Source of the DNA: Streptomyces sp. NBC_00464
Lineage (GTDB): Bacteria; Actinomycetota; Actinomycetes; Streptomycetales; Streptomycetaceae
Direction of reading: 5' to 3'
DNA: 64,000 bases
Assembly (NCBI RefSeq): GCF_036013915.1
Contig: NZ_CP107899.1
Span: 2,542,001 to 2,606,000, forward strand
Shown here: positions 9,655 to 43,545 of the stretch, one piece after another
Position numbering within the stretch: position 1 is the first letter of the stretch
How the letters are laid out: every line of letters starts with the position of its first letter
The notes under the pieces: generated by a model
What the model was told of the DNA's origin: nothing
Database searches by the model: none
The model's input: the letters and a program-made list of their open reading frames with translations, nothing else
Made by a program: the position numbers and the translations under genes

Positions 9655-9656
9655 AG

Positions 9657-9720: not shown

Positions 9721-9811
9721 GAGCGCAGCGGCTCGGCTTCGAGCACCGCTCCCCCGGGTGGGACCGCCCCGGGGGGAGCGCGGCTGGCGAACTGCGGCAG
9801 CGCATCACAGC

Positions 9812-13341: not shown

Positions 13342-13345
13342 CGGT

Positions 13346-16276: not shown

Positions 16277-16291
16277 GGGCTGGGGCCTTAC

Positions 16292-23628: not shown

Positions 23629-23632
23629 CCTC

Positions 23633-23930
23633 TGCCCAATCGGACCGCAGCATTCCTCGCCGCGGGCGCGGCGCTGCCCCGCGTCGCGCTGTCGCCGAGC
23701 AAGCCTGTCGACATCGGCTGGCACACCTGGATCCTCCACACCGTTGAATACGCTGCGTTCTGCGACCACGTCGCCGGCCGGTTCATCCACCACGTCCCGA
23801 TCCCCGAGGCCGAGCGCAACGAGCGTGGCCTTGAGGCGGAACGGCGGCGGACCCTCGACGCGCCAGGATGGGTGAGTGCTCCCAGTGCCACGCGGGCTGC
23901 ACCGACAGCCCCAAAGGCGGCAAGAAGTAG
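23633..23930 (+). pseudogene. 5'-truncated, frameshifted gene abutting array 2
   Basis: Directly after the last repeat an open frame encodes a conserved-looking segment with no start: TAAFLAAGAALPRVALSPSK, PVDIGWHTWILHTVEYAAFC and DHVAGRFIHHVP. I recall this pattern from the C-terminal part of a Streptomyces glycine-rich-domain-like protein family of unknown function. Near the end, a shift to the next frame (at about 23868) reads MGECSQCHAGCTDSPKGGKK and a stop, with the CxxCxxxC expected there. So it looks like the 3' end of a gene that lost its front to the CRISPR array and acquired a frameshift. Confidence 0.6.
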
Positions 23931-23997
23931 CACCAGTTCCCCGTAGTCAGGCCGCCCAGGTTCGATACCGGGCGGCTGACCCCATGAACGGAGCGGC

Positions 23998-24660
23998 ATG
24001 ACCGAGGCCCAGGCGTGGGACACCTACTCGAAGCAGAAGCCCGAGCGCCGCCCCACCAACGCAGCGGGCGAAACCACCTGGTTCAACTGGACCCAGTACC
24101 CGGACCACGGCCCCGGCGCCGAGCTCCTCGGCGTGGGTCCGGGCGCGTCGGTCCTCGACCTGGGCTGCGGCAAGGGCGGCAACCTCGCCCACCTCGCCAC
24201 GCTCGGTGCCCGCGCTGTCGGTGTCGACGTCTCGCTCGCACAGGTCAAGGCTGCAGAATCCCGCTGGCGCCACACCGGCATGACTCTCCACCGCACGGGG
24301 GCCATCCGGTTCCTCAAAGAGAGCGGCGAGCGCTTCGATGCCGTGTTCTCCGTGTTCGGGGCCGCCTGGTTCACCGATCCGACCGCTCTGCTGCCCGCGA
24401 TCCGCCAACGACTGCGGCCGGGCGGAGTCCTCGCCATTTCTCAACGGCCCCCGATCGAGGGCTGCTACGGCTGCCAGGCCTCGTACATCAACCGGTCCGA
24501 GGACGAGGACCCGCTTGTCGTGAAACGCTGGGACCACGAGCCGGACCGCTGGGTGGAGATCCTCGCCGAGCACGGCTTCACCGCGGCAACCGCACGCATC
24601 CTGCCGGCACCGCCCGGCCACCGGAAGATCGGCACCCTGCTGGTCCGCGCCCACGGGTAG
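23998..24660 (+). CDS. SAM-dependent methyltransferase
   Basis: A 220-residue class I methyltransferase with motif I VLDLGCGKGGNLAHLATLG (residues about 49-67), the acidic end of beta 2 (AVGVDVSLAQVKAAE), FDAVFSVFGAAWF and the motif LRPGGVLAISQRPP. Substrate unknown. Homologs I recall from Streptomyces are often next to the small Cys-containing gene whose remnant precedes it here, so the two may once have formed an operon. Convergent with the beta-propeller gene, 14 bases apart. Confidence 0.88.
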   Translation: MTEAQAWDTYSKQKPERRPTNAAGETTWFNWTQYPDHGPGAELLGVGPGASVLDLGCGKGGNLAHLATLGARAVGVDVSLAQVKAAESRWRHTGMTLHRTGAIRFLKESGERFDAVFSVFGAAWFTDPTALLPAIRQRLRPGGVLAISQRPPIEGCYGCQASYINRSEDEDPLVVKRWDHEPDRWVEILAEHGFTAATARILPAPPGHRKIGTLLVRAHG

Positions 24661-24674
24661 GCCGACGTGCCCGG

Positions 24675-25667
24675 TCAGCGCGGCCGGCGTGAATCCAGAG
24701 CAAGCGCCTTGAGCGTTCCTCTGGTCGTGGCGATCACCTCTCCGGCGCCCAGGTCTCGAAGGGCGCTGATCCTCTGCGCGTGGGGCGCCCTCTCCACGAC
24801 CTGTCCGTCCGGTCGCAGGCGGAAGAGCGCGCCCTCACTGGCCACGACAAATCCGCCACCGGCTCGCACCACACCGCTCGCCAGCGGCTGCCCGACATCC
24901 ACCCGCCACAGCGCCGATCCGGCATCGGGGTCCACGGCCGAGTAGCCGGCGCGCAGCTCCCGCAACCACACAGACCCACCGACGAACTCCGCAGCCTGGC
25001 CAACCAAATCGACGTCGTGCCGGACGAGCTCATCAACGGCGCCGGACGACAGGTCAAGAGCTATCAGGGACCGAGGACCGCAACGCGCGAGACAGCGATC
25101 AGGGCTGACGGGGGTGAACACCGGGCGAAGCTCGTCGCCGATCAACGGCTCGGGCAACTGCCACCGAGCCATCTCGCCGCCGTCGCGTGGATCCATCAGC
25201 CATGCATCAGAACCATGGCCCAGCAGCACACCACCACCCCATGTCAGTGGCAGCGCCGCCCGCACAGACGCCGGCGTCTGCCACAGAGGCCGCCCGTCCC
25301 AGAGATCGAACGCGGCCAGGGGCGTATAGCCTCGCCAGCCGCCTACGAGAACGGTGTCGCCGACAGCGACAACATGCCCGGAGAAGCGGGGTAGGTCGAT
25401 ATGCCACAACTCTGCCCCCGTCCTGAGGTCGAGACAGACCAGCTGGTCGGGAGACTGCGGCAGGACCAGGCAACGGCCGTCGGCCACCACGAGGTCGCGC
25501 GGCCATGTACCCATGGGGACATCCCAGCGAACGGATCCGTCTTCGCGGTCGAGGCACACAAGGCGGGTGCGACGCTCGTGCACAACAACGCATTCCTCCG
25601 TCGCGAGGAACAACGAAGAAGAACCCCTTTGATGGAGCACTCGCTCCCACCGTGTCTCCCTGATCAT
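24675..25667 (-). CDS. PQQ-like beta-propeller protein
   Basis: A 330-residue cytosolic protein built of repeated propeller blades in which Trp follows a strand: DREDGSVRWDVPMG, DLRTGAELWHIDLP, DLWDGRPLWQTPAS, DPRDGGEMARWQLPE, DPDAGSALWRVDVG. No signal peptide and no enzyme motif are present. Such proteins usually act as scaffolds or WD-like interaction modules. It ends against the methyltransferase gene; no co-transcribed partner is evident. Confidence 0.82.
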   Translation of the reverse strand: MIRETRWERVLHQRGSSSLFLATEECVVVHERRTRLVCLDREDGSVRWDVPMGTWPRDLVVADGRCLVLPQSPDQLVCLDLRTGAELWHIDLPRFSGHVVAVGDTVLVGGWRGYTPLAAFDLWDGRPLWQTPASVRAALPLTWGGGVLLGHGSDAWLMDPRDGGEMARWQLPEPLIGDELRPVFTPVSPDRCLARCGPRSLIALDLSSGAVDELVRHDVDLVGQAAEFVGGSVWLRELRAGYSAVDPDAGSALWRVDVGQPLASGVVRAGGGFVVASEGALFRLRPDGQVVERAPHAQRISALRDLGAGEVIATTRGTLKALALDSRRPR

Positions 25668-25792
25668 TCGCCGAGTTGACCAGCCGGGCCTCTATCACCG
25701 CAAACCCATTGCTCGCCCTGGTTACAGGCGACGAGCCCATGCGCCCGAAGCGGGAGTCCACGTCGCTCTGCGGAGCCAATTTGCCGCCCGCA

Positions 25793-26257
25793 TCACCCCA
25801 CAGGCCGCCCCGGCGCTCCGCCTGGCGCCGTTTCCGCCCACACCGTCTTTCCCGGCCCCACCCGGTCTTTCACCCCCCAGCGGGCGGCGATCGCCTCGAC
25901 GATGAGGAGGCCCCGGCCTCCGTCTGCCTCCGCGTCGGGTTGCGACACGGAGGCGGTGTCCGGGCGGGCCTCGTGGGTGTCGGAGATCTCGACGCGTACG
26001 ACACCGGTCGTGTACGCGTACGAGAGCCGCAGCTCGAAGTCGCGGCCCGGTACCCGTCCGTGCAGGACCGAATTCGCCGCGAGTTCCGCGACGAGGAGGG
26101 CCACGGTGTCGGAGAGCGGAGTGCTGTAGGGAATCCCCCAGACGTCGAGCTTCCATACGGCAAGGCGCCGAGCGAGGGTCGCGCCCAGGCGGGTGGCTGA
26201 GCACCTCTGAACGAACACACTTACGGTTACGGGAGGTTGGGCTTGCAGTGCTGTCAT
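25793..26257 (-). CDS. Anti-sigma-factor-like HATPase protein (AbaA/RsbW type)
   Basis: A 154-residue GHKL ATPase domain protein of the RsbW class: LLVAELAANSVLHGRVPGRD (N box), VVRVEISDTHEARPD (G1) and GGRGLLIVEAIAARWG (G2). In Streptomyces many such genes sit beside an XRE/DUF5753 regulator and a DUF397 protein, forming WhiJ/BldB/AbaA-like developmental or antibiotic-control triads. Here it is divergent from the XRE gene, 144 bases between starts, which strongly suggests it belongs to that triad. Confidence 0.88.
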   Translation of the reverse strand: MTALQAQPPVTVSVFVQRCSATRLGATLARRLAVWKLDVWGIPYSTPLSDTVALLVAELAANSVLHGRVPGRDFELRLSYAYTTGVVRVEISDTHEARPDTASVSQPDAEADGGRGLLIVEAIAARWGVKDRVGPGKTVWAETAPGGAPGRPVG

Positions 26258-26401
26258 GCGCCAAGCGTTCCGCCTCGACCCTTGCTTCCATCAGGAACGC
26301 CGCCCATACAGAACCGCCTGTATGGGTTGACGCTCTGGACGGGGCGGGTAACCGTCCGTGATCATTGTCGAGTTGATCGATGCGCGGAGGACGGGGCGAC
26401 G

Positions 26402-27250
26402 ATGACGGCGAACCACGAGAGCACTACGGCGGGCAGCGAACCCGAGCTGTCCGACGGACTCAAGACTTTCGGTGCAGTCATAAAGGCCCTGCGCGAGGCC
26501 GCCGGCCTCACCCAGGAAGAGTTCGCGCCCCGCGTCCAGTACTCGCCCGCCTACATCGCCAAGATCGAGCAGGGCAAGAGATTCCCGCCCGAGAACCTCC
26601 CGGAGCGCGCATCCGAGGCCTTGGGGGCGGTAGCGGGCAAGGTCCTCGCCGCTGCCGCGCGAAGTCTGCGAAGGAGGGCCGGTCTGGCCTCCTGGTTCCA
26701 GCAGTGGGCGGGGATCGAAGAGGAAGCGATCACGCTGTACGCGTACGAGTGCCGCGGGGTCCCGGGGCTGCTCCAGACCGAGGGGTACATCCGGGCCGTC
26801 TTCGACCGGCGGCTCCCACCACTCGCGGAGGATCAGTTCGAACAGCAGGTGGCCGCGCGCCTGGCGCGACAGGACCTTCTACCCGAACGCCCCAACAGCT
26901 CATTCTCTTTCCTCATCGAACAAGCAGTCATTGAACGCCAGTTAGGGGGTACTCAAGTCACGTCCACGCTCATCGACAACCTGTTGACGCAGGGCGGACG
27001 CCGCAACGTCGAGGTACTCGTCATGCCGCTCAGGCAGCCGGATCACTCCGGCATCGACGGGCAGATGTACCTCGCCGAGACTCCCTCGAACAGTTGGTTC
27101 GGCTACGTCGAAGGCCATGACAGCAGCACACTCCTCACTGACCCGAAAGTGGTCAGTGCCATGCTCCAGCGCTATGGCAAGATGCGCTCACAGGCGCTGA
27201 GTCACGAGGCCTCGGCGGGCCTGCTGAAGCAGATGCTAGGAGCGCTATGA
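26402..27250 (+). CDS. XRE-family regulator with DUF5753 (WhiJ-like)
   Basis: A 282-residue protein with an N-terminal Cro/CI helix-turn-helix (residues about 20-80: IKALREAAGLTQEEFAPRVQ, YSPAYIAKIEQGKRFPPENL) and a C-terminal DUF5753 domain (YECRGVPGLLQTEGYIRAVF, LARQDLL, FLIEQAVIERQLGG). This is the WhiJ-like regulator architecture, usually paired with a small DUF397 protein that relieves repression. The ATG at 26402 was chosen from HTH spacing; upstream in-frame codons extend it without homology. The stop overlaps the next gene (ATGA). Confidence 0.92.
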   Translation: MTANHESTTAGSEPELSDGLKTFGAVIKALREAAGLTQEEFAPRVQYSPAYIAKIEQGKRFPPENLPERASEALGAVAGKVLAAAARSLRRRAGLASWFQQWAGIEEEAITLYAYECRGVPGLLQTEGYIRAVFDRRLPPLAEDQFEQQVAARLARQDLLPERPNSSFSFLIEQAVIERQLGGTQVTSTLIDNLLTQGGRRNVEVLVMPLRQPDHSGIDGQMYLAETPSNSWFGYVEGHDSSTLLTDPKVVSAMLQRYGKMRSQALSHEASAGLLKQMLGAL

Positions 27251-27441
27251 GTACCGAACTGGCCTGGTTCAAGAGCAGTTACAGCGGCAGCGGCGGCGAC
27301 AACTGCATCGAGGTCGCCCTGCGCCCCCACGCCGTACACGTCCGCGACTCCAAGGACACCGCCCGCCACCCGTTCACCGTCTCCGCCACCGCCTGGACGG
27401 ACTTCACCGCGTACGCCTCCGCCACCGCCCGTACCGCCTGA
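27247..27441 (+). CDS. DUF397 small protein (BldB/WhiJ-partner type)
   Basis: A 64-residue DUF397 protein: LAWFKSSYSGSGGDNCIEVA, VHVRDSKD and FTVSATAWTDFTAY are the family signatures. It overlaps the XRE-DUF5753 gene by four bases, so the two are translationally coupled. In the known WhiJ systems the DUF397 partner antagonises its cognate regulator. It ends just before the LysR relic and CRISPR array 3. Confidence 0.93.
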   Translation: MSTELAWFKSSYSGSGGDNCIEVALRPHAVHVRDSKDTARHPFTVSATAWTDFTAYASATARTA

Positions 27442-27450
27442 CCCGCCCCC

Positions 27451-27554
27451 TCAGTCCTGCAGCAGGTTCCCCCACCGCGACAGCAGGAACTTATTGAACG
27501 CCGCCGACTGAGGGCCCGCGCAGCCAGGCCACGCCGATCTCACCGGCCCGCATG
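27451..27554 (-). pseudogene. 3'-end relic of a LysR-family regulator gene
   Basis: About 100 bases clearly match the 3' end of the intact LysR gene at 29.1 kb. On the minus strand it reads AAFNKFLLSRWGNLLQD and stop, against AAFKKFLLSRRGNLLPE there. Just upstream the frame shifts and reads AGEIGVAWLRG, matching REIGVAWLDG. With the intact gene it forms a direct repeat that brackets CRISPR array 3. Between 27555 and about 27660 nothing recognisable remains. Confidence 0.8.
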
Positions 27555-27660
27555 AGGCTGCGCCGTTCGTCCACCGAGGCGGCGAACACCACATCGCTTC
27601 GCTCGCCAACCATGCCGATATCCTCTTCTGTATCACTACAGCCTGATTCCCAAGTTGGGG

Positions 27661-27738
27661 CTTTTCGCCGTTATGTCGGACTCCGTGAAAGTGGCAGAAT
27701 CACGCACCCCTGGCCCGTATAACCGCAGGTCGCGCAGT
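27661..27738 (+). promoter_or_regulatory. Leader of CRISPR array 3
   Basis: TGTCGGA begins 65 bases upstream of the first repeat (27674), followed by GTGAAAGTGG, and GCAGGTCGCGCAGT touches the repeat. Positions and words agree with the leaders of arrays 1 and 2. Array 3 therefore appears to have a functional leader although no cas genes are adjacent. Confidence 0.82.
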
Positions 27739-29048
27739 CTGCTCCCCGCACGCGCGGGGATGGTCCCTTCTCGCCCACACCGGACGCCCGGTCAGCAACC
27801 TGCTCCCCGCACGCGCGGGGATGGTCCCGGAACCTTGTCGGGCCCGAGGACTTCGCGCATCTGCTCCCCGCACGCGCGGGGATGGTCCCGGGGGTCCAAA
27901 CGGGCAGGGCCTGAACGGGGGCTGCTCCCCGCACGCGCGGGGATGGTCCCGGCCAGTGGAGCACCCACCCCGCGCCCGATTCCTGCTCCCCGCACGCGCG
28001 GGGATGGTCCCGGCACCCGTCCGGGCGGGGCCTGGCCGGTGAGCTGCTCCCCGCACGCGCGGGGATGGTCCCAACGTGCAGGCCCCCGTGCAGGGTGCGG
28101 GCATCTGCTCCCCGCACGCGCGGGGATGGTCCCGGGCGCGGGAGCGCGCAGGTCGCGTTCGGACACTGCTCCCCGCACGCGCGGGGATGGTCCCGAGTCG
28201 ATGTCGGGCGTGTTCTGCGGGAGAGCCTGCTCCCCGCACGCGCGGGGATGGTCCCGAGGGCTGGCCGACCGGGGCCGAATGACCCGCCTGCTCCCCGCAC
28301 GCGCGGGGATGGTCCCGGACGTCAGCCACGTTCGGGAGCGCGTTCTGACTGCTCCCCGCACGCGCGGGGATGGTCCCCAGGTGATCGCCGAGTCCTACGG
28401 CACCACCCCCTGCTCCCCGCACGCGCGGGGATGGTCCCGTGCGCTGGATTCGCCCCGAGGGCGGACAGAGCTGCTCCCCGCACGCGCGGGGATGGCCCCA
28501 GGTTCGTCGGGTGCTGACTGAACCGCTCGCACTGCTCCCCGCACGCGCGGGGATGGTCCCCGATCACGAGCAGGCCCGCCACCTTCGCGGAACTGCTCCC
28601 CGCACGCGCGGGGATGGTCCTGTGGGCGTGCGCTGGCGACACCCCGGGCTCAACTGCTCCCCGCACGCGCGGGGATGGTCCCGACGTGGCCCCGGCGGGC
28701 CCGATCTTCATGGACTGCTCCCCGCACGCGCGGGGATGGTCCTGGTGACGTGCTGGCCGTCTTTGTAGTGCCAGCCTGCTCCCCGCACGCGCGGGGATGG
28801 TCCTGTGCCGTCGAGGGTGATGGAACCGCCGGTGGTCTGCTCCCCGCACGCGCGGGGATGGTCCCCTCGCGGGCCCTTCGGACCTTGGCCTTCCCGTCTG
28901 CTCCCCGCACGCGCTGGGATGGTCCCCGGGCTGCTCCACACGTCCCGCCGCACGTCGGCTGCTCCCCGCACGCGCGGGGATGGTCCCGGCTAATGCGCCT
29001 AACCGACGCCTGCCCCGCGCTGTTCCTTGCACACGCAGGGATAGCCTC
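27739..29048 (+). CRISPR. CRISPR array 3 (type I-E, 22 repeats, 21 spacers)
   Basis: Twenty-two 29-bp repeats at a constant 61-base period (32-base spacers). The repeat reads CTGCTCCCCGCACGCGCG then GGGATGGTCCC: it differs from array 2 by one base in the loop-side stem (CACGCG for CACCCG). The last repeat (29020) is heavily degenerate (TGTTCCTTGCACACGCAG), marking the right side as trailer. No duplicated spacers were noticed. The array has no neighbouring cas genes and probably relies on the operon at 12-21.6 kb. Confidence 0.98.
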
Positions 29049-33846: not shown

Positions 33847-34542
33847 TCAGTTGGTCTGCCCGATGGGCCGCATCTGAATGTGGTTGATGTCCATGCCCTC
33901 GGGCTGGTCCAGCGCGAACAGAATGCTGTCGGCGATGTTCTCCGCGGTCATCGCGGGGCCCGGGGGTGTCCCGCCCCGGCTGTCCCAGAACGGGGTGTCG
34001 ACCTTGCCGGGCGCGATCAGGGTGACGCCGATGCCGTCGCCGGTGACAGCCATACGGGTGTTCTCGGCGAGAGCATGTGCGGCCCATTTGGTGACGGAGT
34101 ACAGATTGCCGGGTGTGTGCTTCACTCCGGCCACGGAGCCGATGATGACAATCCGCCCGCGGGTGTCCTTGAGGTGCGGCACAGTCGCGCGGACGACCAG
34201 AGCGGGGCCCAGCACGTTGGTCAGGACCATGGCGCGCATGGCTTCGGGTGTGTGATCGGTCAGGGCACCGGGCAGGGAGAAGCCGGCGTTGATGATGACG
34301 TTGTCCAGTCGGCCGAAGGCCTGGATGGTGGTGGTGACGGCGGCCTGTACATCGGAGGCATCGGAAGTGTCTCCGGGCAGGGTCATCAGATCGGCACCGG
34401 CTCCCTGCCTGTTGGCGAACGCGACCAGCTTCTCCGGGTCGCGGCCGGTGATGGCCACTCGGTGACCGCGCTTGAGCAGCCGTTGTGCGGTGGCGGCACC
34501 GATTCCGGTGCTGCCGCCAGTGATCAGGGTGGCGTTGTTCAC
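33847..34542 (-). CDS. Short-chain dehydrogenase/reductase
   Basis: A 231-residue NAD(P)-dependent SDR: TLITGGSTGIGAATAQRLLK (cofactor loop), NVIINAGFSLPG, IVIIGSVAGVK (catalytic Ser), YSVTKWAAH (catalytic Tyr and Lys) and APGKVDTPFWD. The GTG start overlaps the stop of the VOC gene (GTGA). It is the last gene of the leftward arm of the 34-43 kb cluster and could reduce or oxidise an alcohol or ketone intermediate. Confidence 0.9.
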   Translation of the reverse strand: MNNATLITGGSTGIGAATAQRLLKRGHRVAITGRDPEKLVAFANRQGAGADLMTLPGDTSDASDVQAAVTTTIQAFGRLDNVIINAGFSLPGALTDHTPEAMRAMVLTNVLGPALVVRATVPHLKDTRGRIVIIGSVAGVKHTPGNLYSVTKWAAHALAENTRMAVTGDGIGVTLIAPGKVDTPFWDSRGGTPPGPAMTAENIADSILFALDQPEGMDINHIQMRPIGQTN

Positions 34543-34991
34543 GGTGTGCTCTCTTCGTCGATGACGGGCATCATCGGCCCGCCGGGGTTCCAGGTCTCCA
34601 GGAAGGACGGCTGCTGGACGGCGTCGACCAGTTCGACGTGGCCGCCGACCGAGTCCATCCGGTGGTAGGCGAACGGGCGGCCGTGAGGGCACCCGGAGAA
34701 GACTTCGGGGAACCCACGGGCGGCGAGGCGTGAGGCCCCGGCAGTTATGTCGGACGTCCAGAATCCGATGTGGTGGAACTGCGCCCGGGTCGTATCGCCC
34801 CAGGGGCCGCCCGGTGCCGCTTCGATGAGTTCGATGAAGGGCGGTCCCTGCGCCGTGAAAGCGATGCGGTAGGGCCAGTCGCCGATGCGTCCGTCGACCG
34901 GGTCGTGCCACCGGACCGCGGAGACGGCAGTGAGATCTTCCATCGCTCTCCCCAAGTCGGGCACGGAGAAACACACATGATAGAAGGTCAT
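34539..34991 (-). CDS. VOC (glyoxalase-fold) family protein
   Basis: A 150-residue vicinal-oxygen-chelate protein: FYHVCFSVPDLGRAMEDL, IELIEAAPGGPWG, FHHIGFWTSD and VGGHVELVDAV give the beta-alpha-beta-beta-beta pattern and metal-ligand positions (His in YHV and FHHIG, Glu in HVELVD). Members are dioxygenases, isomerases or binding proteins. The start ATG follows GGGGGAGAGTGC. It is coupled to the SDR gene. Confidence 0.85.
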   Translation of the reverse strand: MTFYHVCFSVPDLGRAMEDLTAVSAVRWHDPVDGRIGDWPYRIAFTAQGPPFIELIEAAPGGPWGDTTRAQFHHIGFWTSDITAGASRLAARGFPEVFSGCPHGRPFAYHRMDSVGGHVELVDAVQQPSFLETWNPGGPMMPVIDEESTP

Positions 34992-35077
34992 GCACTCTCC
35001 CCCAAAGGGTCGTTGGACTCGCCTGGTGTCCTGCGCGCCTCTGCCGGGCAGGCCCGGCCGGCCGGCCGGGCGGCTGT

Positions 35078-35860
35078 CTACCGGCCCTCCAACCCCGGGT
35101 AGCGGCCGGTGTTCACCCACTCGTCCATGGCGGGCTTGTCCGCGATGTCCACGTACTCGATGCGTACTCCCTGCAGGTCCGGGGCCGTGATGAGCGCGAA
35201 GGGCGTCTCGCCTGCGGCGGGGCGGAAGTAGGCGTCGACGCCGACACCCGCGGCCTCCAGTTCCTTCACCCGGGTGGCCATGTCGCGCTCCCACACCCCG
35301 TAGTACAGGACCTTCCCGGCATGCTCGACGGAGGTGATGCCGTCCCCGTCCGCCTGGATGAGTTCGTACTGCGGATAGGCGGTACGGGAGAACGCGGCCG
35401 TCATCTTCCCCGGGGCGCCCTGCCCGCCCTGTTCGAGATAGGGGATCTCGAAGGTGGCGGGTTCGCTGAACTCGATGCCGAAGCGCTTGGAGTACTGCTC
35501 GACGGCCTCGGCGAGGTCGGGCACGACTACACCCACGTGGAAGCACGACTCCGGGAGAACCGTCCTGGCGGCGGCGTGGCTGAAGGACTCCAGGACCGGC
35601 GGCTGGAGGAGACACTCCAGGAGCTGGGGGATGAACGCGGCCAGGTACCCGGTGTTCCTGTGGAAGTCCAGGGCGGCCTCGTCGGCGTATTCCTCGATGA
35701 CCAGACGCTCGCCGGGGTTGTCCTGGGAGATGACGTAGTCGAAGCGCAGGCAGCCGGGTTCGTTGGCACGGATGTCACGCTCCAGACCGGCCATCAGCGC
35801 GTCGAGGCGCTCTTCGGCTCCGGGCTTCACTGCCTGCCGGGCGGTCGCGGTGATCGTCAC
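35078..35860 (-). CDS. ABM-VOC fusion protein
   Basis: A 260-residue protein with two domains. Residues 1-95 resemble an antibiotic-biosynthesis monooxygenase (ABM) domain (AEERLDALMAGLERDIRANE, PGCLRFDYVIS, ERLVIEEYADEAALDFH). Residues 105-260 are a VOC domain (SCFHVGVVVPDLAEAVEQYS, LQGVRIEYVDIADKP). ABM-type enzymes are small cofactor-free oxygenases acting on aromatic or quinone substrates. The fusion suggests successive steps on one substrate. Lies between the MFS exporter and the single-domain VOC gene in the leftward arm. Confidence 0.82.
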   Translation of the reverse strand: MTITATARQAVKPGAEERLDALMAGLERDIRANEPGCLRFDYVISQDNPGERLVIEEYADEAALDFHRNTGYLAAFIPQLLECLLQPPVLESFSHAAARTVLPESCFHVGVVVPDLAEAVEQYSKRFGIEFSEPATFEIPYLEQGGQGAPGKMTAAFSRTAYPQYELIQADGDGITSVEHAGKVLYYGVWERDMATRVKELEAAGVGVDAYFRPAAGETPFALITAPDLQGVRIEYVDIADKPAMDEWVNTGRYPGLEGR

Positions 35861-35907
35861 GATGGTTCCTCACGTTTCGATGGGTGGAAGCGGGGTGATG
35901 GGGCGGC

Positions 35908-37278
35908 TCAGACAGCGGTGGGCCTCGGGCGGCGCACAGCGGCCACCAGGATCAGGGCCAGCGCTCCGCCGCAGGCCAGTACGGCGCCGGAGGACGTCAG
36001 CGTGGACAGGGGCGCCAAAGCCGCGACGCCCAGTGCGCTGCCGGCCTGTCGTGCCGCGTTGAACGCGCCCTGTCCGGTCGCGGCCAGTTCCTTCGGCACG
36101 GCGATGGCCATGTCCGCGGTGGCGGCGGGGATCGCGAGGGTGGAGCCGAACGAGAGAACCACCTGGGCGATGATGACCAGGGCGAGAGGGGTGTCGGTGG
36201 AAGCGAAGCCCAGCACCACACCGGCAACGGTGTCCAGGGCGAGACCGACCAGAATCACCTGGCGGGCGCCGATCCGGGCCACGACCCGTCCGGTGACCAG
36301 CGGCATGAAGCACATCGGCAGTGTCATCGGCAGGAATGCCAGGCCGGTCTCCAGCGCGGAGAGACCTCGCTCGGTCACCATCCACTGCGTCAGCGCGAAC
36401 AGCACTCCGTAGAAGACGAAGGAGGCCATCGCGCCCGCGATGATGTCCGCCCGCACCCGGGGAAGGCCGATCAGGGCGGGCGGGAGGATGGGGGCCTCGG
36501 CGGAGCGCTCGACGAAGACGAGTGCCACGAACGCCACGGCGGAGAGCGCCAGGGCCACCAGTGGTACGGGGCGTGCCCAGCCGTCCGTTCCGGCGTCGAT
36601 CAGGCCGAACGTCAGGGCCGCCAGCGCAAGGATCGACAGGCCGATACCGGAGCGGTCGACCGTTCGCACCCTGTCCGGCCGGCTCGATGACAGGCCTCGG
36701 GAGGCGAGCAGGGTCACGGCGATGATGGCGGGGTTCACGAGGAACACCAGCCGCCATCCTCCGAGTTCGACCAGGACACCGCCGAGGACCGGGCCGGCGA
36801 TCAGGCCGATGGAGGTGACGGCTGCCCAGGTGCCGATCGCCCTGGCCCGCTCGCCCGGATCCGCGTACAGGCCGGCCAGAAGGGCGAGGGAGGCAGGGAC
36901 CAGACCCGCGGCCGCGACGCCGAGGAGGGCCCGCCCTCCGATGAGGGATCCGGCGTTGGGCGCGGCGGCGCAGGCCAGGGATACGAGTCCGAAGGCGATC
37001 AGCGCACCGCGGTAGACGTTGCGGGGGCCGAACCGGTCCGCGACCGCGCCCGCGGCGAGCAGCAGACCGGCGAAGACGATGGTGTAGGAGTCAACTGCCC
37101 AGGGCAGGGCTGCCGCACCCGTGTGCAGGTCCGATCGGATGTCGGGCAGGGCTACGTTGAGAATGGAGGCGTCCAGGAGGACCAGGAAGTTGCCCACAGC
37201 GATACCTGCGAACAGGCCCCGCCTGCGTGGGCGGGTCTCGTTTCCGGGCTCGACGGCCTTGCCATTGGCGAGTGTCAT
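35908..37278 (-). CDS. MFS drug-exporter (DHA2/EmrB type)
   Basis: A 456-residue permease with about fourteen hydrophobic segments, opening [20 protein letters not shown], the DHA2 motif D1, then [24 protein letters not shown] (motif A) and [20 protein letters not shown] (motif C). Such proteins export drugs or endogenous metabolites. Its position inside the leftward arm suggests it exports the cluster product or protects against its substrate. Confidence 0.92.
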
Positions 37279-37332
37279 GAAGAGCTTCCGTTCAAAGGGG
37301 ACGGCCGGGACCCCAGGGCGGACTGCCCCGGG

Positions 37333-38466
37333 TCAGATGGCGTTGTTGGTGAACCGCGGCCCGTAGAACACCGGCTGGTCGAGGTCGGTGTAGCGCTCCA
37401 GAGCGCGGTGCTGGGCGGGGTACAGCTCCGGCAGCCGGTCGATCGCCGTCTGCGGTATGCGGTTGCGCATGATGTTGAAGCAGGACCGCACGCGCATCTG
37501 GTCCATCTGGGTCACCGCGGCCCCGAGCGAGGGCCACCAGGTCTCCACCGGTCCGTTCCAGGAGGTGTCCAGCGCGATCATCATCTGCGTGTAGGCATCG
37601 TCGAACCCCTCCAGCTCCTTGCGCACCTCCGGTCCCTGCGGATCGAGGGCGAGGATCGCCGCGTAGCCGTCGTCGGGGACGGCGAGAACGTTGATCACCA
37701 CTGGCCAGGCGATCTCCTCGCCGGCGAAGAACTCCCGTTCCGTTTCACGGGAGATGGTCAGGTCTTCGGGGGCGGCGTAGCGGCGGCCGTAGCGCAGTTC
37801 GGCGAAGCGGGCGTAGTGGGAGCCTTCCTTCTGGAAGTCCTCCGCCGCGGTCTCCACGGTGCCCTCGCCCCGGCCCTCGCCCTGCTCGGTGATGATGTCG
37901 AGCCCCTGGAGGAGTTTGCCGACCGGGTCCGGGTCGTCCGTTTCGAAGGTGAGGTAGCCGAGGTTGCCGCCGACCTGGTTCGCCGGCCCTCCCGCTCGCA
38001 TGGCACGCTCCACCGAATCGGAGTTGCGTACGACAGCCGCCCGGATGGCGTCGTAGAACGAGCCGATGGTGGGGTATGCGCAGGCGCGCTGCCGGGTGTT
38101 GAGCATGAACTCCGGTGCCTCCAGGCGCATGAACGCCTCCAGGCTGACGTGGGACAGCTTGGCCAGGTGCAGGCGCAGGTCGGGGGCCACGTGGCCCGGA
38201 AGCCCGCCGGCGCCCGGGAAGGACGGCTTGAGTCCCTTGATGTCAGGGCTGCCACCGAGAGCGGCGACCATGTTCGCGGCGATGGCCATGTGGACCATCT
38301 CCTCCATCAGCACACTGCGGATGGTGTTGTAGGAGGGGTAGTTCTGCACCTCCAGCGAGTACATGGCGGAGCAGTACAGGGGCATGGTGGAGTGCTCCAG
38401 CGCAATGGCTGTCTGCAGGGCTCCACGGATCCAGCTGATGTCTCTGAGTTCCACAGGGGTGGGCAT
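37333..38466 (-). CDS. Ferritin-like domain protein (VioB-domain type)
   Basis: A 377-residue protein whose N-terminal part matches the ferritin-like domain also found in VioB (iminophenylpyruvate dimer synthase). Helices carry likely metal ligands: LQTAIALEHSTMPLYCSAMY (Glu, His), SVLMEEMVHMAIAANMVAAL (ExxH), then AEDFQKEGSHYARFAELRYG (Glu, His). The remainder is helical with Trp-rich stretches. A non-heme dinuclear metal centre acting on an amino-acid or amine-derived substrate is plausible, but much shorter than VioB (about 1000 residues), so the reaction is unknown. Second gene of the leftward arm, 35 bases after DJ-1A. Confidence 0.8.
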   Translation of the reverse strand: MPTPVELRDISWIRGALQTAIALEHSTMPLYCSAMYSLEVQNYPSYNTIRSVLMEEMVHMAIAANMVAALGGSPDIKGLKPSFPGAGGLPGHVAPDLRLHLAKLSHVSLEAFMRLEAPEFMLNTRQRACAYPTIGSFYDAIRAAVVRNSDSVERAMRAGGPANQVGGNLGYLTFETDDPDPVGKLLQGLDIITEQGEGRGEGTVETAAEDFQKEGSHYARFAELRYGRRYAAPEDLTISRETEREFFAGEEIAWPVVINVLAVPDDGYAAILALDPQGPEVRKELEGFDDAYTQMMIALDTSWNGPVETWWPSLGAAVTQMDQMRVRSCFNIMRNRIPQTAIDRLPELYPAQHRALERYTDLDQPVFYGPRFTNNAI

Positions 38467-38501
38467 GCGACGGCTCCCGGCTGTCCTCGTTCGCTTCGGG
38501 C

Positions 38502-39296
38502 TCAGGCGTTCTCGTCCAGCGGCGGATAGAGCATCGGCTGGAAGAAGTCCTGGAACGAGGACTCCAGTTCGGGGTGCTGGTAGAACTCCGGCCCGGTCTG
38601 CTCGAAGATCGCGTCACCGATACCGCCGATGGTGTCGAACATCATCGACACCATCGTGCCGACCTCCCGCCCGAAGTAGTGGGCGACCAGGGCGACGGCG
38701 CCGCCGTTGACTCCGTAGGAGCCGGTGAACGTCCAGAGCCTCGACGCGGGGTTCGCCACCCACATACGGCGGGCCTCGGGCACGTTGAAGCCCTCCCCCC
38801 GCAGTCCGCGCGCGACCGCGGCGACACAGGTCAGGGGTTCGTCGTTGACGATTCCGGAGCGGGCGACAATGCCGACGCCGGAGCAGTTGGCGGCGATGAC
38901 CTTGCCGGCCTCGTGGTGCCGGCGGATCAGCTTGTGGACGCGGTCGTTCGTGAGCAGCGCCCCGGAGCCGACCCCGCCGGGGATGTAGAGGATGTCGAAC
39001 AGCTCGTCGTCGTTCAGGACCGAGTCGGCTACGACGTTCGTACCCATCTGCATCTTGATGACTCCGGGCTCCAGCGACACCAGGCGCACGTCCAGCTCGC
39101 GGTCGGCGGCCTCGCGCTGCCACGGGGCGATCTGGCCGGACGTGACCATCGCCGCGCCCTTGAAGATCTCCAGGGGCGTGATGGTGTCCTGCTCGGAGCA
39201 GGCTTCGTAGCCCAGCACGCCGATGGAGTCGATCTGCGTGACGGCCGGCTTCGCCACCTCGGTCCGGCGGCCACGGGTGGGCGTAGGTGTACTCAC
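38502..39296 (-). CDS. DJ-1/PfpI family protein A (isonitrile hydratase-like)
   Basis: A 264-residue protein with a DJ-1 core: IGVLGYEACSEQDTITPLEI, LFDILYIPGGVGSGALLTND, the nucleophile elbow KVIAANCSGVGIVARSGIV (Cys) and TCVAAVARGLRGEGFNV. This layout (GGVGSGALL, Cys after AAN) resembles isonitrile hydratase and the amidase-like part of AraC-type regulators more than DJ-1 chaperones. GTG 39296 (MSTPTPTRG) gives a normal length; an upstream ATG at 39389 is possible. First gene of the leftward arm, divergent from the cupin gene. Confidence 0.8.
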   Translation of the reverse strand: MSTPTPTRGRRTEVAKPAVTQIDSIGVLGYEACSEQDTITPLEIFKGAAMVTSGQIAPWQREAADRELDVRLVSLEPGVIKMQMGTNVVADSVLNDDELFDILYIPGGVGSGALLTNDRVHKLIRRHHEAGKVIAANCSGVGIVARSGIVNDEPLTCVAAVARGLRGEGFNVPEARRMWVANPASRLWTFTGSYGVNGGAVALVAHYFGREVGTMVSMMFDTIGGIGDAIFEQTGPEFYQHPELESSFQDFFQPMLYPPLDENA

Positions 39297-39560
39297 GGCG
39301 TATCCCCATTCGTGTTGGCGGAGTGAGGAAACGGCCCCGGCGTCATGCGCGTCGAGTGCCGGACCGTATCCCTTCACGCAGCCTGCCAACCACCGCAGAG
39401 CGGTTCAAATAAGCGTTCAGACAGGGGGGCATTACATCCGCGGGGACCCGCCGAACCGTTATCGGGGTCTGCGGCGGCCGCTATTTGGATCAACGAGGGG
39501 CGCTGTCTAGCGTCCATGACCGGACCGGGGGACCACGGCCACTGACGAAGGGGGACCAGC
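39297..39560. promoter_or_regulatory. Divergent promoter region of the 34-43 kb cluster
   Basis: 264 bases between DJ-1A (left) and the cupin gene (right). It holds two related, inversely oriented A/T-rich words, GTTCAAATAAGCG at 39403 and CGCTATTTGGATCAAC at 39479. Such spaced inverted repeats could bind the LysR-type regulator at the end of the right arm. No clear -35/-10 pair was assigned. Confidence 0.4.
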
Positions 39561-40325
39561 GTGTCTGAGATGACGCACGAAGCGCAGGTGACTGAACTGA
39601 TGGTGAGCATAGAGCCCGGTCCACGCGATTTCTCCGCCCTGAACGAAGCCGTCCGCAAGGGCGCGCGCATCGGCAACGAGGACCTGGAGGAGGACGATCA
39701 CCTCAACCAGATCATCCCGAAGCCGTGGGGTATGGAGTACCGCGTCTTCGTGGACGACTTCATCGACGTGTGGAACCTGAAGATCGACGAGGGCGAGTCG
39801 ACGTCGATGCACGTCCACCCACGAAAGCTGACCTACCTGCTGTGCCTCGGGGGACAGGGCGTCACGGAAACCCTCACCGGCCGGATACCGGTGGGGGCGG
39901 GCACGATCCTGCGGATCGGCGGCGGAGCGTTCCACTCCTCCACGAGTGTCGGTCCCGGACCGCTGTGGCTGGTGGAGGTCGAGGCACCGCGCAACAAGTT
40001 CGACCTGATCCGCCTTCGCGACAACTACGACCGCGAGGGCAAGGGCTACGAGAAGGGACACACCGCGATCCCCGATCTGCCGGCCAAGTCCGTGTCGTAT
40101 CTCCCGCAGGCCCGCCTGCGGGACCACTCCCCGGGCAAGGAGTTCGGCTTCTCCATCCGCGCCGGCGCGGACATCTTCTACCGGCGCCAGCCGGAGGACC
40201 TGTTCCACATTCCGCTCGGCCTGACCGGTGTCGTCACCGGGGAGTTCGACATTCTCGCTCCGGCCCAGGGCGATCTGCGCCGACCCGCGCTCGACCAGTA
40301 CTACCTCTCACTCGCCGTCAGCTGA
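39561..40325 (+). CDS. Cupin-domain protein
   Basis: A 254-residue protein with one conserved cupin: motif 1 STSMHVHPRKLTYLLCLGGQ (His-x-His) and motif 2 GTILRIGGGAFHSS. It begins IIPKPWGMEYRVF and continues LVEVEAPRNKFDLIRLRDNY, a style shared with sugar-nucleotide or sugar-phosphate cupins often coded next to HAD phosphatases, as here. The C-terminal third has no known motif. The GTG start follows GAAGGGGG. First gene of the rightward arm. Confidence 0.82.
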   Translation: MSEMTHEAQVTELMVSIEPGPRDFSALNEAVRKGARIGNEDLEEDDHLNQIIPKPWGMEYRVFVDDFIDVWNLKIDEGESTSMHVHPRKLTYLLCLGGQGVTETLTGRIPVGAGTILRIGGGAFHSSTSVGPGPLWLVEVEAPRNKFDLIRLRDNYDREGKGYEKGHTAIPDLPAKSVSYLPQARLRDHSPGKEFGFSIRAGADIFYRRQPEDLFHIPLGLTGVVTGEFDILAPAQGDLRRPALDQYYLSLAVS

Positions 40326-40346
40326 ACACGAAGGAGCAACAGGACC

Positions 40347-40892
40347 ATGCCCAGTGCTGTCATCATCACCGGACCCGGCTTCCAGGACCACGACGTCGTC
40401 TACACCTACTACCGCCTGCTCGAAGCTGACTGGCACGTCGACGTGGCCACCAGGAACGGCGCCGACGTGATCGGGAAGTACGGCATCCCGCTGCCGATGG
40501 ACAAGACCGCCAAGCCCTTGGTGGCCTTCGACCAGCTGGATGTCGCGAACTATGACGCGGTGATCCTCACCGGCGGCCACGAGGCGCCGGACCGGGTCCG
40601 CCAGGACGCGCACGTGCTCGACTTCCTGCGCGCCATGGACGCCGAGCAGAAGGTCATAGCCGGGCTGTGCCACGGGCCGTGGATCATGGTCAGTGCGGGT
40701 GTGCTCAAGGGGCGCAGAGCGTGCGCCTACATCGGCCTGCGCGACGACGTCATCAACGCCGGCGCCGATGTCGTCGACTCGGACGTCATCGTGGACGGCC
40801 ACATCATCACCTGTTCGTACTACGCCTACGTCGGCCGGTTCATGCAACGGGTCTTCGAGACCGTCGAGAAGAAGACCGCCGTCGCCGCCTGA
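40347..40892 (+). CDS. DJ-1/PfpI family protein B
   Basis: A 181-residue DJ-1/PfpI protein: AVIITGPGFQDHDVVYTYYR, YDAVILTGGHEAPDRVRQD and the elbow KVIAGLCHGPWIMVSAGVLK with the Cys-His pair of PfpI/YhbO-type members. Family activities include glyoxalase or deglycase-like and protease-like chemistry, often disputed. It is 21 bases after the cupin gene and is followed by a hairpin. Confidence 0.87.
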   Translation: MPSAVIITGPGFQDHDVVYTYYRLLEADWHVDVATRNGADVIGKYGIPLPMDKTAKPLVAFDQLDVANYDAVILTGGHEAPDRVRQDAHVLDFLRAMDAEQKVIAGLCHGPWIMVSAGVLKGRRACAYIGLRDDVINAGADVVDSDVIVDGHIITCSYYAYVGRFMQRVFETVEKKTAVAA

Positions 40893-40914
40893 GTCCCGGC
40901 CGACCGCCCATGAC

Positions 40915-40969
40915 ACGCAAGGGGCGGGCCGCCGTCGCATTCCCCCGGTTCGGCGCCCGCCCCTTGCGT
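40915..40969. terminator. Long-loop hairpin after DJ-1B
   Basis: A perfect 15-bp inverted repeat (ACGCAAGGGGCGGGC / GCCCGCCCCTTGCGT) with a 25-base loop, between DJ-1B and the HAD gene. It may attenuate transcription so that the last two enzymes and the regulator are made at lower level. Confidence 0.6.
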
Positions 40970-40988
40970 ACCCCATTGGAGACACCTC

Positions 40989-41720
40989 GTGCTGATACTC
41001 GACTTCGACGGAGTCATCGCCGACGCCTTCACCGAGTGCGCCGTAGTCACCTACTACGCCGACCACACCGCCGACGCCGTCGCGGAGAAACCGCTCACCG
41101 AACTCGCCGCGGCCATGCCCGCGGGATTCGTACGCCGCTTTCGGACCGTACGCGGCTATGCCCGGCTCCTGGACGATTTCATGGTGGCCCGGGACCCGTC
41201 CGCGGAGTCCATCCGCAGCGTGCGGGAGTACGAAGACCTCCACGCCCGCATTCCGCCGGTGAAGCTCGCCGGCCTGACCAAGGGCGCCACCGCCGTACGT
41301 GCCGCCCTGAGGGCCCGCCAGCGGGATGCATGGCTGGACATGCACACGCTCTACCCCGGAATCAGCGACCTGCTGCGCCGCCACCAGGGGCGGGGCACCT
41401 CCATCGTCACCGCGAAGGACGAGCAGAGCGTGTGGGACATCCTCGGCCACCACCAGCTGGAGACCACCGTGACCCAGGTCATCGGGGAATGCTCCGACAA
41501 GCGCACGGCGGTGGCGCAACTGGCCCTGGACGACGGGCTGCCCGCTTCCGCGGTGACCTTCGTCGACGACCACATCACCAACGCTCTGGCCGTCCGCGAC
41601 ACCGGCGCCAACTCCCTGTGGGCCTGGTGGGGCTATCACACCGCCGAGCACATCGAGCGGGCGGTCACACGCAAGCAGCGGCGCGTGTACCTACCCGAAC
41701 TCGCCGGTCTGGACGCCTGA
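40989..41720 (+). CDS. HAD-superfamily hydrolase
   Basis: A 243-residue haloacid-dehalogenase-fold hydrolase: motif I LILDFDGVIADAF (DxD), motif II SIVTAKDE (Thr), a Lys in SDKRTAV and motif IV TFVDDHITNAL (DD). Most such proteins are phosphatases. The GTG start overlaps no other gene. Placed between two DJ-1 genes and after a cupin, it may dephosphorylate an intermediate. Confidence 0.86.
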   Translation: MLILDFDGVIADAFTECAVVTYYADHTADAVAEKPLTELAAAMPAGFVRRFRTVRGYARLLDDFMVARDPSAESIRSVREYEDLHARIPPVKLAGLTKGATAVRAALRARQRDAWLDMHTLYPGISDLLRRHQGRGTSIVTAKDEQSVWDILGHHQLETTVTQVIGECSDKRTAVAQLALDDGLPASAVTFVDDHITNALAVRDTGANSLWAWWGYHTAEHIERAVTRKQRRVYLPELAGLDA

Positions 41721-41770
41721 TTCCCGTATCTCGTTCCGCATCCTCATCCCTCACAGAAAAGGACTGCACT

Positions 41771-42433
41771 GTGCCGAAGGTATTGTTCGCTCTCACCTCC
41801 CACGGCCGGCTCGGCAACACCGGCCGGAACACCGGCTTCTACGTGCCCGAAGTGGCCCACCCCGCCAGGGTCTTCCGCGATGCGGGCTGGGAGATCGCGT
41901 TCGTGTCCGTCGCCGGAGGGAAGCCCCCGCGAGACGGCGTCAAGCCCGATGACACGGTGACGCAGGAGTTCCTGGCAGCCAACGACACGGCACTGTCGGC
42001 GACTCCGGACGCGGCATCCCTCAACGCCGGGGACTACGACGCCATCTACTTCGCCGGTGGCCACGGGACCATGTGGGACTTCCCCGACGCCAAGGAACTC
42101 GCGGACCTGGCCGCCGGTGTCTACCAGGCCGGCGGGGTCGTCGCCGCCGTCTGCCACGGCCCCGCCGGGCTGGTCAACCTCACCCTCCAGGACGGCTCCC
42201 ACCTCGTGGACGGCAAGCAGGTGTCGGCCTTCACCAATGAGGAGGAGGACGCCGTGGGCCTGACCGACGTCGTCCCGTTCTCTCTTGAGAGCACCCTGAT
42301 CGCGAAGGGCGCGAAGTTCAACAAGACGGACAACTTCGCGGAGTTCGCCGTCGCCGACAGCCGGCTCGTCACCGGCCAGAACCCCGCCAGCGCTGCGAAG
42401 GTCGCCGAGCTGACCATCGCCGAACTGGCCTGA
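41771..42433 (+). CDS. DJ-1/PfpI family protein C (Hsp31/glyoxalase III-like)
   Basis: A 220-residue Hsp31-type DJ-1 protein: KVLFALTSHGRLGNTGRNTG, FYVPEVAHPARVFRDAGWEI, YDAIYFAGGHGTMWDFPDAK and the elbow VVAAVCHGPAGLVNL (Cys-His). The closest described members convert methylglyoxal to lactate without cofactor. The GTG start at 41771 follows AAAAGGACTGCACT. Third DJ-1 protein of the cluster, differing clearly from A and B. Confidence 0.9.
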   Translation: MPKVLFALTSHGRLGNTGRNTGFYVPEVAHPARVFRDAGWEIAFVSVAGGKPPRDGVKPDDTVTQEFLAANDTALSATPDAASLNAGDYDAIYFAGGHGTMWDFPDAKELADLAAGVYQAGGVVAAVCHGPAGLVNLTLQDGSHLVDGKQVSAFTNEEEDAVGLTDVVPFSLESTLIAKGAKFNKTDNFAEFAVADSRLVTGQNPASAAKVAELTIAELA

Positions 42434-42440
42434 GCCGTCA

Positions 42441-42495
42441 GCGGGCAGGCGCCTCCCAGCCGGTGGACCGCCGGAATCCGAGAGGGCCTGCCCGC
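42441..42495. terminator. Terminator after DJ-1C
   Basis: GCGGGCAGGC pairs with GCCTGCCCGC across a 35-base loop directly after the DJ-1C stop, with further partial pairing outside. It separates DJ-1C from the LysR gene. Confidence 0.5.
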
Positions 42496-42648
42496 GCCCG
42501 CCGACGGTCGTCTTTACGTTTGTGACGCATTCATGAGGGACCCTTTGCGAAATCAGTCCCGGTTGTTGGGTAGCTTTCGTGCAGTGTTCGGGAAGGCGCC
42601 CGGGGGGTGGTGCCACCAGCACGAATGGTGCCGGGGGTCACCTACTCA

Positions 42649-43545
42649 ATGCAACTGGGCTGGCTGCAAACATTTACAGCCGTGTACCGCACCGGCTCGT
42701 TCACCAAAGCGGCGCGCGAACTGGGGATCACACAACCTGCTGTCACCCAGCACATCCGCGGCCTGGAGAACGAGCTCGGCAAACCGCTCTTCGTTCGCAC
42801 TCCTCAGGGTGCGACACCCACTGCCGAGGGAGAGTCGCTGGCCCACGGGGTCCAAGGCTCCATCAGCGATCTCAACGCCGCCGTCGCCCGGCATTTCGGC
42901 ACGGCCTCCAGCAACCGGCCGTTACGACTCGGTGGGCCGGCCGAACTGGTCTCGGCACGGGTCCTGCCGTCCATCAGCCGGCTGATCGCCGACGGGATGG
43001 ACGTCAGCGTCACTCTCGGCGAGGCCGACCATCTCCTGGCGGACCTCAAGTCCGGCCACCTCGACATCGTCGTCTCGACGATCAGGCCACGGTATCGGGG
43101 CCTGGACGCCGCACCTTTGGCCGACGAGGAGTTCGTCCTCCTCGCCTCTCCGCAGACCGCCGGCACACTGGCGGAGGGAGCCTTGGCCCTCGACGGGCCC
43201 CGGGCACTGGAGAAGCTCCCGCTCATCGCCTACGCGGAGGCCCTGCCGATATTCCGCCGGTACTGGCGCACCGTGTTCGACGCACCGCCTCCTACACGTC
43301 CGGCCGTCGTCATCCCCGATCTGCGTGGGGTCCTCGCCGCCGTCATCGCGTCCGCCGGCATCTCGGTCCTGCCCACCTACCTGTGCGCCGACGCACTGGC
43401 CGCCGGGACCGTGGTTCCCCTCCTTGAACCGGAGGTGCCGCCACTCAACACCTTTTACCTCGCCACCCGATCCGGTGCGCTGGCCGACCATCGCCTCGCC
43501 GCCGTCCACGGCCACCTCCTGGCGCAGGCCAAGGACTGGACGTGA
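42649..43545 (+). CDS. LysR-family transcriptional regulator (cluster regulator)
   Basis: A 298-residue LysR regulator: HTH QTFTAVYRTGSFTKAARELG, ITQPAVTQHIRGLENELGKP, LFVRTPQGATPTAEGESLAH, then an effector-binding domain (RPLRLGGPAELVSARVLPSI and LRGVLAAVIASAGISVLPTY). ATG 42649 is chosen because the HTH then begins at the usual position; no ribosome-binding site is obvious. As the last gene of the right arm it is the natural candidate to control the divergent promoters at 39.3-39.6 kb. Confidence 0.9.
   Translation: MQLGWLQTFTAVYRTGSFTKAARELGITQPAVTQHIRGLENELGKPLFVRTPQGATPTAEGESLAHGVQGSISDLNAAVARHFGTASSNRPLRLGGPAELVSARVLPSISRLIADGMDVSVTLGEADHLLADLKSGHLDIVVSTIRPRYRGLDAAPLADEEFVLLASPQTAGTLAEGALALDGPRALEKLPLIAYAEALPIFRRYWRTVFDAPPPTRPAVVIPDLRGVLAAVIASAGISVLPTYLCADALAAGTVVPLLEPEVPPLNTFYLATRSGALADHRLAAVHGHLLAQAKDWT

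Follow-up and report, generated by a model that had tools for sequence, protein, structure and literature searches.

The 64,000-nucleotide stretch analysed here, hereafter the window, spans positions 2542001-2606000 of a Streptomyces-type chromosome of 8.96 Mb (Streptomyces sp. NBC_00464), and carries at its positions 33847-43545 eleven open reading frames in two divergent arms. A sequence-only reading of this locus had assigned the eleven genes to named families; all are present in the window's list of open reading frames, and Pfam supports every assignment, that of the cupin most weakly. The left arm (minus strand) encodes, in order, DJ-1A, a ferritin-like protein (FER), an MFS transporter, an ABM-VOC fusion, a VOC protein and an SDR; the right arm (plus strand) encodes a cupin, DJ-1B, a HAD hydrolase, DJ-1C and a LysR-type regulator, the last of which is probably cluster-specific. 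The features are as follows.

33847..34542, minus strand: SDR oxidoreductase of the left arm (PF00106, 2e-40)
34539..34991, minus strand: VOC protein, Glyoxalase_4 (PF13669, 3.6e-14)
35078..35860, minus strand: ABM-VOC fusion protein (PF03992, 2.6e-16, and PF13669, 6.2e-13)
35908..37278, minus strand: MFS transporter, DHA2/EmrB-like (PF07690, 2.9e-58; TIGR00711, 5.6e-54, under its cut-off)
37333..38466, minus strand: ferritin-like protein, FER (PF12902, 1.1e-43; E...ExxH...E...ExxH set)
38502..39296, minus strand: DJ-1A, a divergent DJ-1-fold protein (PF01965, 3.8e-17)
39406..39413, plus strand: CAAATAAG element of the divergent promoter, left-arm side
39459..39488, plus strand: operator-like element TTAT-N19-TATTTGG, right-arm side
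39561..40325, plus strand: cupin with KPWGxE, HxHxxK and GxFH (PF07883, 1.5e-4, under the curated cut-off)
40347..40892, plus strand: DJ-1B, a PfpI-type DJ-1 (PF01965, 3.9e-36; PDB 6hf6, 2.9e-33)
40989..41720, plus strand: HAD hydrolase (PF00702, 7e-6; PF13419, 1.2e-5)
41771..42433, plus strand: DJ-1C, Hsp31/glyoxalase-III-type (PF01965, 3.2e-12; PDB 4p5p, 4.3e-49; 4lru, 5.9e-38)
42649..43545, plus strand: LysR-type regulator (PF03466, 9.3e-27; PF00126, 1.6e-24)

Judging from relatives (a second Streptomyces locus, L014, among them) and from ribosome-binding sites, DJ-1A probably starts at the GTG at 39296 rather than at 39389, and relatives and ribosome-binding sites likewise point to probable starts at the GTG at 39561 for the cupin, at 41771 for DJ-1C and at 42649 for LysR. 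The VOC and SDR genes overlap by 4 bp, and the GC content of the cluster is ordinary (0.680; window 0.689). This genome is rich in DJ-1 genes, PF01965 having 17 matches above cut-off across the chromosome (18 in total), which makes their number at the locus less surprising; three inside 4 kb are still notable. The families are all known, and it is their combination that constitutes an undescribed orphan accessory metabolic cluster: as had been proposed from the sequence, no described cluster with this gene set appears among the literature matches listed, with MIBiG outside that comparison.

The eleven genes form a real unit, the core of which recurs, in both arms, at 14 Streptomyces loci (group 1: the window, L009-L019, L076 and L107). 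Recurrence was one of two points at which the sequence-only reading had exposed its cluster to refutation, and the genes do travel together. A FER search of named genomes yielded 27 loci, eleven of which (L009-L019) have the two-arm core, and L076 and L107 came from two further genomes; duplicates were left out of the counts (L072, equal to L017; L077 of G120, 100% identical to L015; G144, equal to L011; G1460 and G943, equal to L019). As L010, L011 and L107 are closely related (DNA identity of 95-97%, common flanks), and L017 and L018 are 94% identical, the 14 loci represent about 11 independent backgrounds; beyond these sets of relatives, no flanking gene was seen to be shared between the loci compared. 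For the eight proteins that every one of the 14 loci encodes, pairwise distances correlate both between arms (r 0.61-0.90) and within them (0.73-0.96), which indicates that the shared proteins of the two arms evolve together, and the most conserved of the eight is DJ-1B (mean distance 0.128, against 0.217-0.356 for the others).

Within group 1, ABM-VOC was not found in the stretches examined at six loci (L013-L016, L019 and L076), in which another MFS family also replaces that of the window. At L017 and L018 it is VOC that was not found, and ABM-VOC and MFS are kept beyond LysR; at L013 an additional DJ-1C-like gene sits between the arms. An MFS gene is present at every group-1 locus, as is the SDR, which also occurs at the Actinoplanes locus L023 (54-78% identity among relatives). 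At L014 (4900-13586; Streptomyces sp. CB01201), which was counted as a locus with its frame pieces left unjoined, FER, DJ-1C, SDR and LysR appear as broken frames, reflecting either decay or assembly errors. The cluster is rare and patchily distributed. DJ-1B was matched at 1e-60 in nine of 392 genus genomes, six with the two-arm cluster and three with a variant, L104-L106, described below; the cupin was matched at 1e-10 in five of 394 class genomes, and all five cupins adjoin DJ-1B, HAD, DJ-1C and LysR; and DJ-1A was matched at 1e-25 in a single phylum genome of 396, the window's own. FER homologues are common, with some match in 61 of 199 genus genomes, and exceed 70% identity in three besides the window.

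A conserved element, TTAT-N18/19-TATTTGG, lies in the intergenic region between the arms, and CAAATAA is placed toward the left arm. The core pattern is exact in 13 of the 14 group-1 loci (one base is changed in L011), and has one site in the 64-kb window (shuffle mean 0.01) and one in the 8.96-Mb genome (0 in the reversed control); CAAATAA lies in the intergenic region of all 14. At L017 and L018, the separate ABM-VOC gene has a copy of CAAATAA ~60 bp upstream, and at L013 the extra gene parts the two elements, so that one stands next to each arm. These placements are consistent with an operator-like element to which LysR may bind. The core element was not found in the single-arm loci described below (group 2, group 3 (L104-L106), L073-L075 and Rouxiella); exact pattern matches in two distant loci, L024 and L026, were taken as chance, and no sigma-70-type site emerged from a promoter scan.

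The cassette combines two modules that have had separate histories and are found apart elsewhere. The right-arm module (cupin, DJ-1B, HAD, DJ-1C, LysR and MFS), the more self-contained of the two, occurs in other actinomycete families at L073-L075, with no matches there to DJ-1A, FER, ABM-VOC, VOC or the cluster's SDR; other SDR-like genes lie near the set in L074 and L075, and another VOC-like gene near that of L074. It is also found on a plasmid of Rouxiella badensis, in which DJ-1B shows 61-65% identity, the HAD-like frame is short and some stretches are masked, and, with no left arm, in three Streptomyces (L104-L106; group 3), two of whose genomes (G155, G158) gave no FER match at all, the third being outside that draw. 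The module adjoins sugar genes elsewhere. Each group-3 locus carries a glucose-6-phosphate dehydrogenase gene (zwf), genes for an SMP-30/gluconolactonase-like and an ABM protein, and two more DJ-1C-like genes; zwf in L104 matches TIGR00871 at 2.4e-177, and in L105 and L106 the zwf, SMP-30 and ABM genes were recognised by eye. L105 additionally has opcA, and no LysR inside the 20 kb examined. One partial case, a 4-kb contig of Pseudomonadota (L089), carries homologues of DJ-1B (46-48%), of the cupin and of altronate/galactarate dehydratase, together with a gene resembling GDP-fucose synthase; among the 398 Pseudomonadota genomes drawn, only 2 had a DJ-1B match at 1e-45. The MFS gene, which the earlier reading had taken for that of an exporter, is a constant of this module: all 21 right-arm loci have one, in differing families, some recognised by eye and one (L073) separated from the set by a TetR gene. 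The Rouxiella plasmid (NZ_CP060593.1) gave two DJ-1B hits of equal score (L078, position 114499), one of them beside arsR/arsC, and its cassette contains a polysaccharide-deacetylase-family gene (PF01522).

The left-arm core (DJ-1A, ABM-VOC and FER, with DJ-1C) stands without cupin, DJ-1B or HAD in actinomycetes at L021, L022, L023 and L035, and L020 has FER only (group 2). L023, from Actinoplanes, additionally has the SDR and a LysR of 51% identity. The ABM-VOC gene adjoins DJ-1A in group 2 and again in the cyanobacterium Gloeothece verrucosa, where DJ-1A (41-43%) and ABM-VOC (41%) occur together, with neighbours encoding a DyP peroxidase, a distant PF12902 protein (27%), IolE, a second TIM-barrel protein and a GMC oxidoreductase of weak pyranose-oxidase similarity (1.4e-13, far under cut-off). 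Near the group-2 clusters lies a protein of ~610-750 residues (L020:2748-5012, L022:534-2372, L023:278-2431 and L035:481-2322), which in L023 combines a GlcNAc 2-epimerase-like domain (PF07221) with a STAS domain and which adjoins GlgX-like genes, recognised by eye, in L020 and L023; a GMC oxidoreductase at L022:5156-6664 is narrowly above the NCBIfam cut-off for the mycofactocin dehydrogenase MftG (388.6 vs 387.45). Distant relatives of FER (47-52% identity; L024-L034) occur in Pseudovibrio, Saprospiraceae, Flavobacteriales, Acidobacteria and Phycisphaerales in a different cassette, which at L024:1534-11128 includes DNase_II (PF03265), a metallophosphatase (PF00149) and proteins of 949, two similar ~265-290 and 308 residues with no Pfam match; genes like these were seen by eye in the other loci read of that set. 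In Pseudovibrio (L034:17977-19787), the cassette adjoins an MbnB/TglH/ChrH enzyme (PF05114) that modifies ribosomally synthesised and post-translationally modified peptides (RiPPs), with its DUF2063 partner, which suggests a link to RiPP maturation. On a Klebsiella aerogenes plasmid (L080:4626-9738), a distant homologue of DJ-1A (29%) lies beside LysR and two genes annotated as glyoxalase.

Among the three DJ-1 proteins, DJ-1C belongs by its sequence to the glyoxalase III/Hsp31 family, and would therefore fit reactive carbonyl chemistry. This agrees with one part of the earlier proposal, that the cluster makes or breaks a reactive carbonyl, isonitrile or quinone-like compound; its other two parts gained no such support, as discussed below. 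DJ-1C is a full-length relative of glutathione-independent glyoxalase III/Hsp31 (4lru, residues 1-217 of 220) and keeps the Cys-His pair (C128-H129, within CHG at 128-130), but differs from that family in its setting, a cassette with two other DJ-1 types, a cupin and a phosphatase. The pattern GGH[GA][TA]...CHG is present in 31 of 34 DJ-1C-like proteins, the rest being two extra paralogues and one broken-frame piece. DJ-1B resembles the PfpI/PH1704 deglycase-type DJ-1 proteins in sequence (1g2i, 3.9e-32, beside 6hf6) and in E79, C108 and H109, which we take to be the functional residues of that type. Its motif, GGHE...LCHG, is kept in 21 of 21 copies (one from a duplicate locus; Rouxiella left out), and it departs from PfpI/PH1704 as a distinct, very conserved subfamily accompanied by this cupin and HAD. 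A further match, at 3.6e-18, is to 3fse from Anabaena, a natural fusion of the DJ-1/PfpI and ferritin-like fold types. In DJ-1A, Glu22 and Cys125 (251-residue numbering) are invariant in alignments of 16 and 11 sequences, and the AlphaFold2 model (pLDDT 86) finds human DJ-1 at the top of the fold comparison (TM 0.67/0.88). Its sequence matches are to DJ-1 homolog D (7.2e-9) and isocyanide hydratases (5.3e-6 for 3nor, to 3.2e-4); in the structure list, isocyanide hydratase stands at rank 20, with a query-normalised TM of 0.67, equal to that of human DJ-1.

The partners of these proteins retain intact catalytic motifs. HAD bears a signature of the type that we take to mark phosphatases, DxD at D5/D7 (motif I), and these residues, T141 and D193/D194 are invariant in 12 sequences, the pattern holding in 21 of 21 (one a duplicate; Rouxiella left out). 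The cupin, whose fold matches in the PDB are cupins, has KPWGxE, a motif presumably shared with mannose-phosphate isomerases, and a candidate 3-His metal site (H84/H86/H125) in an HxHxxK...FH pattern. Its best PDB sequence match is the triazine-forming AzcA (9u8n; profile 1.8e-7), which we take to be linked to azacytidine, but the match covers only the 80-residue cupin core, the AzcA chain having 100 residues, and no other azacytidine gene was recognised at this cluster; no literature link for the match was found. A pairing of HAD with an acireductone-dioxygenase cupin, as in methionine salvage, was considered and set aside, as the Glu ligand of acireductone dioxygenase is not visible in the HxHxxK motif. 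FER is a probable diiron oxidase/oxygenase, as judged from a ligand set of E24, E56/H59, E116 and E214/H217, all of which except E24 are invariant in 21 sequences; E24 is present in the window, and 3 of 25 proteins (one a fragment) do not fit the helix-1 pattern. FER shares its domain match and diiron ligand pattern with the PF12902 family, which presumably includes VioB/RebD-type enzymes, and differs from that type as a stand-alone protein of 377 residues beside which no indolocarbazole or violacein gene was recognised. In the literature, PMC4417212 describes fungal PF12902 genes beside lodA/lodB-like genes, PMC13061610, on hydrazone oxidation, deals with an AurF-type diiron enzyme with other partners, and PMC13118837 mentions cupins, its main text containing none of the words ferritin, DJ-1, PfpI and glyoxalase.

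Together, we tentatively favour a LysR-controlled accessory cassette of two modules that would divert sugar phosphate through an alpha-dicarbonyl stage, dephosphorylate it and export the product, a reading that seems to us possible rather than probable. The PMI-like cupin may take a sugar phosphate, or the oxidised form of one, as its substrate, and HAD would strip the phosphate; DJ-1B and DJ-1C may convert an osone-like intermediate, an alpha-oxoaldehyde, to a hydroxy acid in the manner of glyoxalase III. The left arm would add oxidation (by the diiron protein FER, ABM-VOC and VOC), a third DJ-1 and reduction by the SDR, and the MFS pump would export the product as a small polar specialised metabolite. 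Flow may be outward and anabolic, because a phosphatase and an MFS gene occur with neither a kinase nor a dedicated importer, and the distribution is patchy. In favour of such a pathway are the recurrence of the unit and its patchy occurrence, the motifs kept in HAD, DJ-1B and DJ-1C, the single operator-like site, the sugar genes that adjoin the right-arm module elsewhere and the MFS gene of all right-arm loci. Several points weigh against it. The cluster encodes no synthase, ligase or transferase, nor any other evident committed step; zwf is present at only 3 of 21 right-arm loci, and what Zwf and OpcA provide could be NADPH for stress defence rather than substrate. The right arm in Proteobacteria amounts to one plasmid, with its short HAD-like frame, and one 4-kb contig on which only cupin and DJ-1B lie. 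For the cupin, the structure model is poor (pLDDT 52) and no geometry was drawn from it, and the structure matches fail to tell isomerases from oxygenases, many cupins tying in the list such that a mannose isomerase role is not separable from a KdgF-like one. Finally, the direction of MFS transport and the substrate of the pathway are predictions from genes. A stronger form of the same idea, in which a cross-phylum module with biosynthetic DJ-1 proteins takes a dicarbonyl of hexose-phosphate origin to a hydroxy-acid or rare-sugar metabolite for export, and is fused in Streptomyces with a separate diiron oxidative module under one operator, we regard as unlikely.

A close rival, itself rather doubtful, is that the cluster is an inducible system of electrophile or carbonyl defence and metabolite repair. 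LysR would then sense a reactive carbonyl, which the DJ-1s, VOC proteins and SDR would convert; HAD would clear damaged phosphosugars, ABM-VOC and the diiron protein would take the oxidised products, and MFS would pump out the rest. Such a role accords with a glyoxalase-III-like DJ-1C that is matched at all right-arm loci and at four of five group-2 loci, with the extra DJ-1C-like pair at each group-3 locus, with the NADPH that Zwf and OpcA could provide, with the resemblance (under cut-offs) of the MFS proteins to drug-efflux families, and with the GMC and STAS genes, and the SnoaL-like and aldo-keto-reductase genes seen by eye, of the group-2 clusters. However, the distribution is very patchy for a general defence, DJ-1B is strongly and specifically conserved, and the cupin is not clearly needed.

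Catabolism of a compound from outside the cell, such as a sugar acid, a C-glycoside or a beta-diketone, appears improbable. Here the cupin would be a 3-His dioxygenase, for which H84, H86 and H125 offer a possible pattern, with DJ-1/glyoxalase steps downstream and MFS as importer; LysR control is typical of catabolic operons, and the IolE and GMC oxidoreductase genes of Gloeothece would be in keeping. Against this, no CoA, aldolase or ring-cleavage step is recognised, the MFS proteins are efflux-like, and a phosphatase stands in place of a kinase. An isonitrile pathway or detoxification with DJ-1A as isocyanide hydratase is scarcely credible, as the weak sequence similarity (about 1e-5) and tied TM score noted above are set against the better sequence match to DJ-1 homolog D, human DJ-1 at the head of the structure list, and the lack of an isocyanide synthase among the eleven genes, no such family appearing among the scanned proteins of the cluster. 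For quinone chemistry, the ABM domain is the sole pointer. An anti-phage system was also considered, and none of six proteins scanned at 1e-5 matched a PADLOC model. Elsewhere in the window (9560-28650), the list of open reading frames shows by eye a type I-E CRISPR-Cas system with several repeat arrays, all genes on the minus strand (cas3 18656-21604, cse1 16957-18663, cas7 14847-16067, cas5, cas6 and cas1).

A reactive compound derived from a sugar is probably what the cassette handles and exports. As the cluster has no standard synthase, this compact and mobile unit would probably be missed by synthase-based mining. More broadly, DJ-1 proteins are widespread and much studied, and their physiological substrates are disputed. 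Three DJ-1 types are here tied genetically to a fixed set of partners, one regulator and one operator-like site, and therefore offer a bacterial system for finding DJ-1 substrates.

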